Part shown: one piece after another, positions 20,847 to 24,297 of the stretch | Position numbering within the stretch: the stretch's first letter is position 1 | Layout: each line of letters opens with the position of its first letter | Assembly (NCBI RefSeq): GCF_014925385.1 | Contig: NZ_JACSDK010000001.1 | Coordinates: 682,001 to 746,000, forward strand | Reading direction: 5' to 3' | From: Pelagibius marinus | Lineage (GTDB): Bacteria > Pseudomonadota > Alphaproteobacteria > Kiloniellales > Kiloniellaceae | DNA: 64,000 nucleotides | The notes under the pieces: model-generated | Seen by the model: the letters and a program-made list of their open reading frames with translations, nothing else | Databases searched by the model: none | Told to the model about the DNA's origin: nothing | Translations under genes and position numbers: made by a program

Positions 20847-20876
20847 GTGACGTCACATTTTAGTGTAGTGACGTGA
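20847..20876 (+). promoter_or_regulatory. Paired GTGACGT direct repeats upstream of the YHS/bufferin operon
   Basis: GTGACGTCAC (20847-20856, itself a palindrome) and GTGACGTGA (20868-20876) start 21 bp apart, two helical turns. They lie about 100 bp upstream of the YHS gene. The spacing fits a dimeric regulator binding on one face of the DNA. The regulator is unknown. Confidence 0.4.
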
Positions 20877-20976
20877 TTTGATCGTCCCGGGGGAGGCCAA
20901 ATATCTCTAAGCCAGCAGGCAGAGGCCTGCGCCCCGCTAAGGGGATTGGAATAACAGGAGATGTGAGGTTTCCCCC

Positions 20977-21534
20977 ATGATGCGCAAACTCCTTCTGGCC
21001 TCGGCCCTGTCAGTCATGACGCTGGGCGCGGCCCAGGCCGGTGAGCAGTACGTCGATGAGACCGGCTATGCGGTAAGCGGCTACGACCCCGTCGCCTTCT
21101 TCGACCTGAAGCAGAACCCGGTCGGCAAGAAGCAGCCGGAAGCGGTCCCCGGCAAGGCAAGTATCACCGCCGAGTACAACGGCGCGAAGTGGGCCTTCGC
21201 CTCGGAGGCCAACCGCGACAAGTTCCTGGCCGATCCGGAAAAGTACGCCCCGGCCTATGACGGCCACTGCGCCTATGGCGTTGCCAAGGACGGCAAGGTG
21301 CCGGGCAACCCCAATCTGTGGCGTATTCTCGACGGCAAGCTCTACCTGAACATCACTCCGACGGTGGTGGGCTTCTGGGAGAAGGACATCGACGGCTTCC
21401 TGAAAACTTCCGAGAGCAATTGGGAATCGCAGGAATCCAAGCCGGCTTCGACCCAAAGCTGGAAGAAGATCAAAGACAACGACGGCACCTACTCGGTCAA
21501 CGCGCCGCTGATGCCGGAAGCGCTGACCAACTGA
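20977..21534 (+). CDS. Exported YHS-domain protein
   Basis: This 185-residue protein has a signal peptide (MMRKLLLASALSVMTLGAAQA, cleavage after AQA) followed by a YHS-type domain with YAVSGYDPVAFF, a KWAFASEANRDKFLADPEKYAP core and HCAYGVA. YHS domains are small, cysteine/histidine-bearing modules often linked to metal handling. Here the family is the periplasmic YHS group with GYDPVAYF. It lies 69 bp upstream of the bufferin precursor on the same strand and probably shares its transcript. A role in copper or heavy-metal stress is inferred from that context. Confidence 0.88.
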   Translation: MMRKLLLASALSVMTLGAAQAGEQYVDETGYAVSGYDPVAFFDLKQNPVGKKQPEAVPGKASITAEYNGAKWAFASEANRDKFLADPEKYAPAYDGHCAYGVAKDGKVPGNPNLWRILDGKLYLNITPTVVGFWEKDIDGFLKTSESNWESQESKPASTQSWKKIKDNDGTYSVNAPLMPEALTN

Positions 21535-21603
21535 TTTGCGTTTCGGGCGGCCAAGGCCCGGAAACAGCCGACAGCATTGAGAGTTGATAAGGAGAGTCCT
21601 CGA

Positions 21604-21933
21604 ATGGCTGAAAAGACGAAAATGATGAGCGCCGCGATGATTGCCGGCGCGGTGGCCCTGGCGGTTTCGGCGACGGCGGAAGTGAACTCGGCTTCGGCCC
21701 AGGCCAAGGAGAAGTGCTACGGCATTTCGATGGCCGGCCAGAACGACTGCGCCGCCGGTCCCGGCACCACCTGCGCCGGTACCTCGACCGTCGACTACCA
21801 GGGCAACGCCTGGAAGCTGGTGCCCGCCGGCGACTGCGCGAAGTACGGCGTCGAGGAGTCCGAGGCCAAGTACGAGCTGCCCGGCGACCGCAAGGGCTCG
21901 CTCGAGGCGCTGGAGCGCGACCGGCCGGCCTGA
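21604..21933 (+). CDS. Bufferin-type RiPP precursor (DUF2282, BufA1-like)
   Basis: This 109-residue DUF2282 protein has a Sec-type signal region (residues 1-34, hydrophobic core [16 protein letters not shown]) and a mature part with four cysteines at 38, 49, 57 and 78 in KCYG, NDC, TTC and GDC contexts. This is the BufA1/GigP pattern, in which the DUF692 oxidase converts cysteines to copper-binding thiooxazoles. The 3' tail is charged. AAGGAGAG lies 9 nt before the ATG. It is separated from the MNIO gene by a strong hairpin at 21958-21991. Modification and metal binding are known for the family and inferred here. Confidence 0.88.
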
Positions 21934-21957
21934 GGCTGGTTCTGAAGGAGTTCCGCA

Positions 21958-21991
21958 GCCCGGCCGTGATGCCACGGCCGGGCGCGGTTTT
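21958..21991 (+). terminator. Intergenic attenuator-like hairpin between bufferin precursor and MNIO genes
   Basis: GCCCGGCCGTG (21958-21968) and CACGGCCGGGC (21973-21983) form a perfect 11-bp stem with a 4-nt loop, followed by GCGGTTTT. It lies 25 bp past the precursor stop and ahead of the MNIO ribosome-binding site. It could partly terminate transcripts or protect the precursor mRNA 3' end, raising precursor over enzymes. Confidence 0.75.
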
Positions 21992-22021
21992 CCCGGCAGC
22001 GTGAACTGGAGGATGGCTGGC

Positions 22022-22918
22022 ATGGCGGTTTCGGCGGAGATTCCGGCACGCGCCGGGGTGGGGCTGAAGGCTCAGCACTACGATGCCATCCTGGGCAGCC
22101 GCCCCGACGTCGGCTGGTTCGAGGTGCATGCCGAGAACTACATGGGCGCCGGCGGTCCGCCGCATCACTACCTGGAAGCCATCCGTCGCGACTATCCGAT
22201 TTCGCTGCACGGCGTCGGCCTGTCCATCGGCGCCGAGCGTCCCCTGGACGAGGATCACCTGGCGCGCCTCAAGGCGTTGAACGCGCGCTATCAGCCGGGT
22301 CTGGTCAGTGAGCATCTCGCCTGGTCGACCCACAACGACGTCTTCTTCAACGACCTGCTGCCGCTGCCCTACACCGGTGAAGCCGTGGAGCGGGTCAGCG
22401 ACCACATCGACCGCCTGCAGGAGGTGCTGGACCGGCGCATCCTGCTGGAGAACCCATCCACCTACGTCGCCTTCGAGAGCAGCGAGATGAGCGAGCTGGA
22501 CTTCCTGCAGGCCGTCTCTCTGCGCAGCGGCTGTGGCCTGCTGCTGGACGTGAACAACGTGCTGGTCTCCGCCACCAACCAGGGCTACAGCGCTGAGGCC
22601 TACATCGACGCCTTTCCCATGGCGCTGGTCGGCGAGATCCACCTGGGCGGCCACGCCCGCGACCGCGACGACGCCGGGCAGCCGCTGCTGATCGACGCCC
22701 ACGACCGCCGGATCGACGACAAGGTCTGGACGCTCTATGCGCGCGCCATCGCGCGGGCCGGCGTGAAGCCGACGCTGATCGAATGGGACAACAACCTGCC
22801 GGGCTGGCGCGAACTCTTCGCCGAGGCGCGCACCGCCGACCGCCTGATGTCGGCTCAGGACGCCCTGCGCCGCGACCGCCGAAAGGGGCTGGAGGCCGGA
22901 CATGCGACGGTTGGCTGA
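22022..22918 (+). CDS. MNIO-family RiPP maturase (DUF692, BufB-like)
   Basis: DUF692 proteins are multinuclear non-haem iron oxidases that modify cysteine residues of RiPP precursors. This 298-residue protein shows the full family pattern on a TIM-barrel: VHAENYMGAGG, HGVGLSIG, SEHLAWSTH, LLPLPYT, LENPSTYVAF, LLLDVNNVLVSATN, EIHLGGH and LIEWDNNLPG. The His/Asp/Glu iron ligands sit in these motifs. I chose ATG 22022 because GGAGG lies 9 nt upstream; 22013 or GTG 22001 are alternatives. Its end overlaps the DUF2063 start by 17 bp. Confidence 0.93.
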   Translation: MAVSAEIPARAGVGLKAQHYDAILGSRPDVGWFEVHAENYMGAGGPPHHYLEAIRRDYPISLHGVGLSIGAERPLDEDHLARLKALNARYQPGLVSEHLAWSTHNDVFFNDLLPLPYTGEAVERVSDHIDRLQEVLDRRILLENPSTYVAFESSEMSELDFLQAVSLRSGCGLLLDVNNVLVSATNQGYSAEAYIDAFPMALVGEIHLGGHARDRDDAGQPLLIDAHDRRIDDKVWTLYARAIARAGVKPTLIEWDNNLPGWRELFAEARTADRLMSAQDALRRDRRKGLEAGHATVG

Positions 22919-23690
22919 CCTGCAGGCGGACTTCGCCGCGGCGCTCAACGACCCGGCGCTGCCGGCGCCGGCGGACGTGCGCCGCCAGGTGAAGCTGCCG
23001 CAGAGCCGCCGCTTCGACGTTTACCGCAACAACATGATGGTGAGCCTCATCGAGGTACTGGAGGCCACCTTTCCGGTGGTCCAGCGCCTGGTCGGCAGCG
23101 ACTTCTTCAAGGCCGCGGCCAAGGTCTACATCCGCCAGGCGCCGCCGCGTTCCCCGGTGCTGCTGCTCTACGGCGAGACCTTCGGCGACTTCCTCGACGG
23201 CTTCGAGCCGGCGGCGGGGGTGCCTTACCTGGGCGACGTGGCGCGCCTGGAGTGGGCGCGTGTCAATGCCTATCACGCCGCCGACGCGGAGCCGCTGACC
23301 ATCGAGCACCTGGCGGCGGTGCCGCAGGCGCAGCTGGCGCAGACGCACTTTACGCTGCATCCCTCGCTGCGGCTTGTCAGTTCACGTTTTCCCGTGGCCT
23401 CCCTCTGGGCGGCGACCAGCGGGGCGGACCCGCAGGCCGAGGTCGATATGAAGCGCGGCGAGGACGCCGCGGTGCTGCGCCCCATGCTGGCGGTCGACCT
23501 GCGCCTGCTGCCGCCGGGCGGCCATGCCTTCATGGCCGCGCTGGCCGGGGGGCACCCCCTGGGAGAGGCGGCGGACCTTGCCGCGCGGGCGGTCGAAGAC
23601 TTCGATCTCGCCTGCCACCTGCAGGGGCTGTTTCAGCTCGGCGCCGTCGCTGCCCTTCAGCCGCCCGAACCGATTCAAGAACAGGCATAG
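22902..23690 (+). CDS. DUF2063 RiPP partner protein (BufC/HvfC-like)
   Basis: DUF2063 proteins accompany DUF692 enzymes and help recruit the precursor peptide. This 262-residue protein has LADLQADFAAALND and RRFDVYRNNMMVSLIEVLEATFPVVQRLVG near the N-terminus, the usual DUF2063 start, then FGDFLDGFEPAAGVPYLGDVARLEWARVNAYHA in outline. The second half is beta-rich. It overlaps the MNIO gene and is 10 bp from the DoxX gene, so the four genes form one operon. Confidence 0.9.
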   Translation: MRRLADLQADFAAALNDPALPAPADVRRQVKLPQSRRFDVYRNNMMVSLIEVLEATFPVVQRLVGSDFFKAAAKVYIRQAPPRSPVLLLYGETFGDFLDGFEPAAGVPYLGDVARLEWARVNAYHAADAEPLTIEHLAAVPQAQLAQTHFTLHPSLRLVSSRFPVASLWAATSGADPQAEVDMKRGEDAAVLRPMLAVDLRLLPPGGHAFMAALAGGHPLGEAADLAARAVEDFDLACHLQGLFQLGAVAALQPPEPIQEQA

Positions 23691-23700
23691 AGTTCGAACG

Positions 23701-24297
23701 ATGACTCAAGCAATCTCCCGCGCGCTGCGCCTCTACCGTCGCGCCGTCGGCCTGACCGAGGCTCGCCTCGACGGCTGGTTCCTCGGTCTGCTGGCGCGCT
23801 TCCTCTTCGCCGCCGTGCTGCTGGTCTATTACCTCAACTCGGCCAGCACCAAGGTGGGCGAAGGCATCGCCGGCTTCTTCTCGGTCGGCGACAACGCCTA
23901 TTTCCAGATCCTGCCGAGCGTGGTGGAGGCCTACAACTACGACGCCTCGCAGGTACCCTTCTTCCCTTACGACCTGATCGTCATCGCCGGCACCTACGCC
24001 GAGTTCATCCTGCCGATCCTCATCGTGCTGGGCCTCTTCACGCGCCTGGCGGCGCTGGGCATGATCGGCTTCACCCTGGTGCAGAGCTACGTCGACATCG
24101 TCTTCCACGGCGTTGACGCCAAGACCATCGGCGCCTGGTTCGACCGCTTCTCCGATGCCGCCATCCTGGACCAGCGCGCTCTCTGGGTCTTCCTGCTGGT
24201 CACCCTGGTGGTCAAAGGCGCCGGCGCGGTCTCGCTGGACTGGGTGTTGGGGAAGAGGCTGCTGGCGAAACCGGCGGGGCAGCAGGTCGCGGCCTAG
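23701..24297 (+). CDS. DoxX-family membrane protein of the bufferin operon (GigT-like)
   Basis: This 198-residue DoxX-type inner-membrane protein has four hydrophobic helices (about 30-50, 95-115, 120-145 and 170-190). It is the usual last gene of DUF2282-DUF692-DUF2063-DoxX operons. It may feed electrons or take part in metal stress, but the role is not settled. The chosen ATG at 23701 starts 10 bp after the DUF2063 stop; the frame is open further upstream inside that gene but is not coding there. Confidence 0.88.
   Translation: MTQAISRALRLYRRAVGLTEARLDGWFLGLLARFLFAAVLLVYYLNSASTKVGEGIAGFFSVGDNAYFQILPSVVEAYNYDASQVPFFPYDLIVIAGTYAEFILPILIVLGLFTRLAALGMIGFTLVQSYVDIVFHGVDAKTIGAWFDRFSDAAILDQRALWVFLLVTLVVKGAGAVSLDWVLGKRLLAKPAGQQVAA

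Follow-up and report, generated by a model that had tools for sequence, protein, structure and literature searches.

An exported YHS-domain protein encoded ahead of a Buf1 bufferin operon in Pelagibius marinus: a candidate partner of the copper peptide

Does an exported YHS-domain protein belong to the bufferin system whose genes follow its own, or is it a chance neighbor? The question is raised by a 64,000-nt stretch of the Pelagibius marinus genome (NZ_JACSDK010000001.1, positions 682,001–746,000, forward strand), which we refer to at its full length as the window. Positions 20977–24297 of the window hold five genes, all on the plus strand, in the order YHS-bufA-bufB-bufC-doxX. Judged by sequence, the last four form a Buf1 bufferin operon of a known kind, to which the YHS gene is a new addition. 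The recurrence of the same pairing among relatives marks YHS as a member of the bufferin system rather than a chance neighbor. The role that we infer as most likely lies in the periplasm, where YHS would pair stoichiometrically with the mature copper peptide and work through one conserved cysteine.

The operon and its first gene

20977..21534, plus strand: YHS, an exported protein of the YHS_seleno_dom family with a C-terminal extension (185 aa; assigned by profile scores)
20977..21039, plus strand: Sec-type signal peptide of YHS, MMRKLLLASALSVMTLGAAQA (read by eye, AQA/GEQ cleavage)
21268..21270, plus strand: codon TGC of Cys98, the sole cysteine of mature YHS, in the motif DGHCAYG (from the sequence)
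21604..21933, plus strand: BufA, DUF2282 (Buf1) bufferin precursor with a C-terminal tail (109 aa)
22022..22918, plus strand: BufB, MNIO (DUF692) bufferin maturase (could also start in frame further upstream, at 22001 or 22013)
22902..23690, plus strand: BufC, DUF2063 partner of the MNIO (profile score)
23701..24297, plus strand: BufD, DoxX-family membrane protein (profile score)

The first-pass annotation, which had read this locus as a bufferin operon with an attached YHS gene, placed all five genes and their strand correctly, and its bufferin assignment is upheld by the family scores. The precursor scores 84.7 bits against DUF2282 (cut-off 22.4), the maturase 388.5 bits against MNIO_BufB (NF050167; NCBIfam cut-off 310), the partner protein 88.8 bits against DUF2063 (PF09836; PME type 1; cut-off 27.2), and the membrane protein 27.9 bits against DoxX (PF07681; cut-off 23.6), the last remaining under the NCBIfam cut-off for HvfX (27.5 vs. 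80 bits). In BufB, 20 H/D/E/N/C columns are among those that carry the window's residue in at least 97% of 122 BufB sequences. The precursor cysteines were also given exactly (residues 38, 49, 57 and 78), and they are invariant in 14 aligned precursors; the N-terminus of BufA, judged by eye, is a predicted signal peptide, and no relative of BufA was found among solved structures at E ≤ 1. The description of the genes as joined by overlaps or short gaps is fair for the operon at large (MNIO/DUF2063 overlap, 17 nt; DUF2063–DoxX gap, 10 nt), with the exception that the two gaps flanking the precursor gene, 69 nt after YHS and 88 nt before the MNIO gene, are the longest of the operon.

DoxX is frequent, rather than universal, in Buf1 operons, and an extracytoplasmic function (ECF) sigma factor with NrsF lies nearby in part of the family. 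The window matches the published Buf1 layout in having a signal-peptide precursor with four cysteines, a BufB-family MNIO, a DUF2063 protein and DoxX in the same order, as given in the relevant reports, which also describe SigF/NrsF control in Caulobacter and the gig operon in Cupriavidus (PMC12452194, PMC3511200, PMC8224329). In Buf1 peptides, it is the two central cysteines that are modified, the outer pair being joined in a disulfide (PMC12452194). Unlike the known Buf1 operons, this one has an exported YHS protein as its first cistron, a precursor tail with GSLExLxRDLP-like residues, and a hairpin after bufA. It also differs from the Caulobacter operons with respect to SigF/NrsF, an optional pair in Buf1 systems: phmmer searches of the window with the sigma factor and NrsF of the Thalassobaculum plasmid gave no match (E ≤ 1e-5).

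The first gene is assigned to the YHS domain by Pfam (41.9 bits; cut-off 30.3) and to YHS_seleno_dom by NF041384 (127.5 bits; cut-off 70). It resembles the latter family in scoring above the cut-off, in being exported, and in its invariant cysteine, which in the family lies mostly in a G-H/Y/F-C-A motif. It departs from the family name in carrying cysteine instead of selenocysteine (the Cys98 codon being TGC), and from the family at large in its linkage to an operon for a ribosomally synthesized and post-translationally modified peptide (RiPP) and in the roughly 30 extra residues at its C-terminus, which are found in the bufferin-linked clade. Selenocysteine at this position had been suggested by in-frame TGA codons in YHS paralogs, and the three that were checked are terminal stops. 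Ten residues, Cys98 included, are invariant in 69 YHS relatives, and every linked protein in a set reduced at 90% identity (26/26) has exactly one cysteine past residue 28. An AlphaFold2 model built from the 69 sequences has a mean predicted local distance difference test score (pLDDT) of 93.1, with the C-terminal extension also at high confidence; an earlier model from 14 sequences had reached 38.5. Among solved structures, sequence relatives are found for the short YHS core only. As a separate observation, the YHS proteins of five loci (L134, which is bufferin-linked, and L006, L167, L168 and L170) appear by eye to start with signals of the twin-arginine kind; such proteins would be exported after folding, and perhaps together with a cofactor.

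Recurrence of the pairing

When the YHS protein by itself was used to scan genomes, 57 loci were found. In 15 of them, YHS is followed on the same strand by bufA-bufB-bufC; doxX then comes next in 14 of these, and the remaining one (L019) ends too early. The operon is also present in two cultured strains, Pelagibius litoralis DSM 21314 (L066) and Oceanibacterium hippocampi CECT 7691 (L016). The other 42 loci include two with the same type of YHS and no adjoining buf genes (L013 and L025) and one cut at a contig end (L049). From the side of the precursor, 61 genomes of the order yielded 37 BufA matches in 26 genomes, 16 of them long-tailed (≥152 bits) and 21 not (≤95 bits), and 30 of the 37 were fetched with 1.5-kb flanks (7 were left out). 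A YHS gene lies just 5′ of BufA at all 16 long-tailed loci vs. 0 of the 14 others fetched; in one of the 16 (L094), near a contig end, the YHS gene is broken. The reverse search agrees: all 15 YHS matches of at least 318 bits adjoin a long-tailed BufA, the next match scores 133 bits, and solely the broken copy of L094 adjoins BufA among the matches under 318 bits.

The pairing extends beyond the order. In 385 sampled genomes of the class, 130 have a BufA match, and in at least 14 of the 130, YHS lies directly 5′ of BufA on the same strand (12 of 127 by the coordinates of YHS matches, plus G000 and G039 from the order-level searches, through which G004 was compared as well). The arrangement is seen at 8 of the 30 best-scoring class loci and at 5 of 40 more picked down the list, and a YHS match of any kind is present in 57 of the 127 BufA-bearing genomes searched; near-identical operons remain in several of our counts, which are to that extent not independent. 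With about one YHS gene per genome, and assuming 4000 genes per genome and independence, far less than one such case is expected by chance. In four further genomes (G154, G134, G420 and G405), BufA and YHS lie about 3–7 kb apart with no shared operon in the stretches read, and these were left uncounted.

A tree of 69 YHS proteins distributes the 26 that are linked over several separated positions, namely the clade of the window, a Kordiimonadales pair, L100 together with L145/L131/L134, L109, and L119/L125. The L109 protein is sister to unlinked paralogs, one of them from the source genome itself. The tree requires seven changes between the linked and unlinked states, at least five of which are forced by well-supported branches, with gains and losses not distinguishable. 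The arrangement of the genes also varies. A plasmid of Thalassobaculum sp. OXR-137, typed as mobilizable, carries YHS-bufABC-doxX-sigF-nrsF in one row, and the Aminobacter plasmid pANY103b (L179) has bufABC-doxX-GDCCVxC-YHS, with YHS 3′ of doxX and transposase genes flanking. In G372 (L184:792-2656), YHS comes third, after sigF and nrsF, in a unit divergent from the buf genes. Four other plasmid loci came from the BufA search, of which three list no YHS within 8 kb and one is without annotation. On pANY103b, the gene between doxX and YHS (L179:6484-7240) encodes a GDCCVxC-domain "(seleno)protein" (NF041374) and is a second candidate accessory gene. The first-pass annotation had staked its reading on YHS genes co-occurring with bufferin operons in relatives; the pairing survived that comparison, and YHS genes prove recurrent beside bufferin operons, in separated lineages and more than one gene arrangement. 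Because relatives keep the pairing and other lineages show it separately, YHS is probably an overlooked partner of the peptide.

One survey of MNIO clusters suggests how it could have been overlooked. In that survey, unrelated genes were admitted only up to a distance of 10 bp from one already known (PMC12452194); in our first hairpin set (see below), all YHS–bufA gaps place bufA at least 16 nt past the YHS stop codon (bufA starts being set by homology), so that under this rule YHS genes would fall outside the survey clusters. The term YHS is absent from the main text of that survey (supplements excepted) and from the main text of a report on related peptides (PMC13097082). Our literature search, which did not cover the original bufferin paper, found no paper joining YHS with DUF2282 and, among the papers listed, none joining it with NrsF, MNIO or DUF692; one apparent co-mention of the YHS domain and "bufferin" was the word "buffering." The parts of the literature searched likewise assign no role to the YHS_seleno_dom family.

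Precursor tail, upstream motif and hairpin

The pairing involves a particular form of the precursor. In 14 aligned YHS-linked precursors, which were picked from the long-tailed kind, the BufA tail is invariant at L92, P93, R96, G98, L100, E101, R105, D106 and P108 (14/14). In the window's clade, the YHS extension and the long precursor tail are both present, and the linked YHS proteins of other clades lack the extension and have shorter-tailed precursors. Exceptions are the YHS–BufA pair of L026/L154, in which neither tail is found, and L099, where the precursor tail is long and the YHS end is of another kind.

Two non-coding features accompany the genes:

20852..20882, plus strand: conserved 31-nt motif GTCACATTTTAGTGTAGTGACGTGATTTGAT, separated by 94 nt from the YHS start that follows it
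21953..21987, plus strand: RNA hairpin CCGC.GCCCGGCCGUG AUGC CACGGCCGGGC GCGG (from folding), between bufA and bufB

The upstream motif, which contains TCAC-N6-GTG and CGTGATTTG, probably serves the operon as promoter or operator. With a threshold of 15 bits, it precedes 14/34 YHS-linked operons and 7/73 bufA genes without YHS 5′ of them, figures that are inflated since the matrix was partly trained on the same sites (12 training sites, 9 from linked operons and 3 from YHS-less precursors). The zeros at the same threshold are not affected: 0/34 YHS–precursor gaps and 0/50 regions upstream of unlinked YHS genes; in 1500 random 220-mers, the rate is about 0.3%. The source genome has this one site only, at up to 3 mismatches. 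The motif was also noted at the YHS-less bufA genes of L085, L086, L088 and L128. From the placement of the motif, a single transcript starting 5′ of YHS is likely. The first-pass annotation had spoken of a YHS gene fused into the same transcript; the single transcript stands as the likely arrangement, and the word should be co-transcribed, as the genes are separate.

The 31-nt motif differs from the SigF/ECF16 consensus. A SigF promoter was considered for the window's operon and set aside, the best site upstream of YHS having 4 mismatches to GTAACC-N16-CGAA. SigF-like sites with up to 2 mismatches occur at 7/26 linked vs. 4/44 unlinked YHS genes (Fisher p 0.09), and the Thalassobaculum sigF-nrsF operon (L099) has two of them, one 5′ of YHS and one immediately 5′ of the sigma gene, so that some relatives, such as Thalassobaculum, may use a SigF promoter.

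The whole bufA–bufB gap folds with a z-score of −2.0, which is modest, compared with −0.05 for the YHS–bufA gap. Hairpins of −20 kcal/mol or stronger follow bufA in 30/30 linked operons of a first set, in which they were also found in 13/18 scored operons with the same precursor motif and no YHS 5′ of bufA, and in 0/11 others scored. In a second set, they are present in the linked L154, L175 and L185 and in 10/36 operons without YHS 5′ of bufA. The totals for distinct operons are 31/33 linked vs. 23/65 without YHS 5′ of bufA, with duplicates counted once (L026 = L185, L099 = L175), 5 + 5 loci of unscorable gap length left out, L162 masked, and L179 and L184, where YHS lies elsewhere in the system, counted among those without YHS 5′ of bufA. 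Since the stem sequences differ between lineages, it is the structure rather than the sequence that is kept. The hairpin was not listed by a terminator scan, as too few T follow it, and an Rfam search gave no match. In the puf operon of Rhodobacter, an intercistronic hairpin divides the message.

The role of the YHS protein

We hold with moderate confidence that the locus is a Buf1 operon in which YHS is a recurrent member, co-transcribed with the precursor and, once in the periplasm, partnering the mature copper-bufferin in stoichiometric amounts. Transcription of the operon would start from a promoter 5′ of YHS, and the hairpin after bufA would protect the YHS-bufA message or separate it from the enzyme genes; if it acts as such a divider, YHS and BufA would be produced in larger amounts than the enzymes. 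Inside the cell, ahead of Sec export, BufB and BufC would form thiooxazoles at the two central BufA cysteines. YHS, exported separately, would then act on the mature copper-bufferin in the periplasm by docking it, by taking its copper, or by preventing its oxidation. The working residue would likely be Cys98, and the C-terminal extension may offer a docking surface. A related system is that of the captophorins (fontiphorin, gonophorin and oxazolin), copper-associated thiooxazole peptides in which an MNIO and a DUF2063 protein act on precursor cysteines (PMC13097082); unlike BufA, their precursors are built of EGKCG repeats. The same report describes DUF2282 products as binding copper in order and a related peptide as aggregating with copper (PMC13097082), and on that account a docking or copper-exchange partner would have an obvious use. 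In its most specific form, YHS would be a dedicated accessory of a class new to MNIO-made RiPPs, with its extension and the peptide tail docking, Cys98 exchanging Cu(I), and the family recruited repeatedly by separate lineages; this version is possible, if doubtful.

Several observations weigh against a partnership of this kind. The majority of BufA-bearing class genomes show no YHS directly 5′ of BufA (116/130), and a YHS match of any kind is missing from 70 of the 127 searched, which means that bufferins can work without YHS. Conversely, the tail-type YHS genes of L013 and L025 are not beside buf genes; a BufA with a shorter tail is encoded elsewhere in the L013 genome, with no YHS in its 3.3 kb, and the genomes of L025 and L049 gave no BufA match. 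Cys98 is equally conserved in YHS proteins outside buf operons and is consequently not bufferin-specific. As the long-tailed pairs share common descent, co-evolution of the two tails is indistinguishable from that descent. The hairpin, once considered a mark of YHS-containing operons, was rejected as such because it is found in many operons without YHS 5′ of bufA, and it is missing in the linked L131 and L134 and in L179 and L184; it is retained solely as support for expression on the precursor side. Fold searches with YHS returned no informative relative, the weak matches being a YHS-like part of toluene monooxygenase hydroxylase and ciliary proteins.

A single cysteine in the mature part makes a redox or scaffold role as possible as the metal handling (loading, protecting or sensing) proposed in the first-pass annotation, and YHS could be a general envelope thiol protein (in some relatives perhaps a selenol one) that is co-regulated under copper or oxidative stress and never contacts the peptide. 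The invariance of that cysteine and the family name would fit, as would the two "(seleno)proteins" encoded in the same Aminobacter operon; two selenoprotein surveys list a YHS-domain protein, which is not shown to be YHS_seleno_dom. Co-regulation without contact has a precedent in the Caulobacter SigF regulon, which joins bufferin operons with methionine-sulfoxide repair. We nevertheless regard this role as rather unlikely, because within the order a single YHS clade is joined to a single BufA form in 16/16 cases and YHS stands between the promoter motif and the precursor, both of which exceed what shared regulation needs, and because the in-frame TGA codons of the three paralogs checked proved to be stops rather than selenocysteine at Cys98. 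The sigF-nrsF-YHS unit of G372, the single row on the Thalassobaculum plasmid and the counts of SigF-like sites given above might instead point to a sensor of metal or bufferin state for the ECF sigma/NrsF switch that controls bufferin operons, all the more as NrsF has conserved cysteines required for signaling. With no sigma or NrsF match in the window, a best SigF-like site with 4 mismatches and a conserved motif of another kind, we judge such a sensor improbable.

That YHS is itself a second MNIO substrate, modified at Cys98, would accord with an exported, cysteine-bearing protein encoded 5′ of the MNIO, and the survey authors allow for protein substrates and for more than one substrate per MNIO (PMC12452194). 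Cys98 is, however, as conserved in YHS proteins without an adjoining MNIO, and the fold is predicted confidently, leaving this idea highly improbable. The redox, SigF/NrsF-switch and second-substrate roles all rank below the periplasmic-partner reading. We give equally little credence to a hitchhiking neighbor with no functional tie: the long-tailed lineage by itself could represent one ancestral neighborhood kept by descent, but linkage also occurs in separated YHS clades, in several arrangements and on plasmids, far above the chance expectation. As an exported and conserved protein whose gene adjoins that of the precursor, YHS is a concrete candidate partner, and the pairing would supply a functional context for the YHS_seleno_dom family. 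A rule looser than the 10-bp limit, which would hide YHS, may expose other accessory genes, such as that of the GDCCVxC protein.

Outside the operon, a gene for a pyridoxal phosphate-dependent dehydratase lies 186 nt 5′ on the same strand and is not retained beside the operon among the linked loci of the YHS genome scan, and a short-chain dehydrogenase/reductase gene lies 3′ on the opposite strand. The source genome has two further bufferin operons (contig C16; L008 and L009), one with two tandem precursor genes, and no YHS was found in the stretches read around them; its other two YHS genes are on contigs C3 and C8, apart from the C16 operons. Contig C8 also holds an MNIO gene (L010), around which no BufA precursor or BufC partner was found. 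The operon of L015 (CP051228.1), titled Mesoflavibacter (Bacteroidota), groups with alphaproteobacterial ones, which suggests a wrong label or a mixed bin. Finally, sigma-factor-like and NrsF-like genes adjoin YHS-less bufA genes in 11 loci (L110, L116, L122, L132, L139, L143, L146, L148, L153, L158 and L159), and in 10 of the 11 they are divergent.

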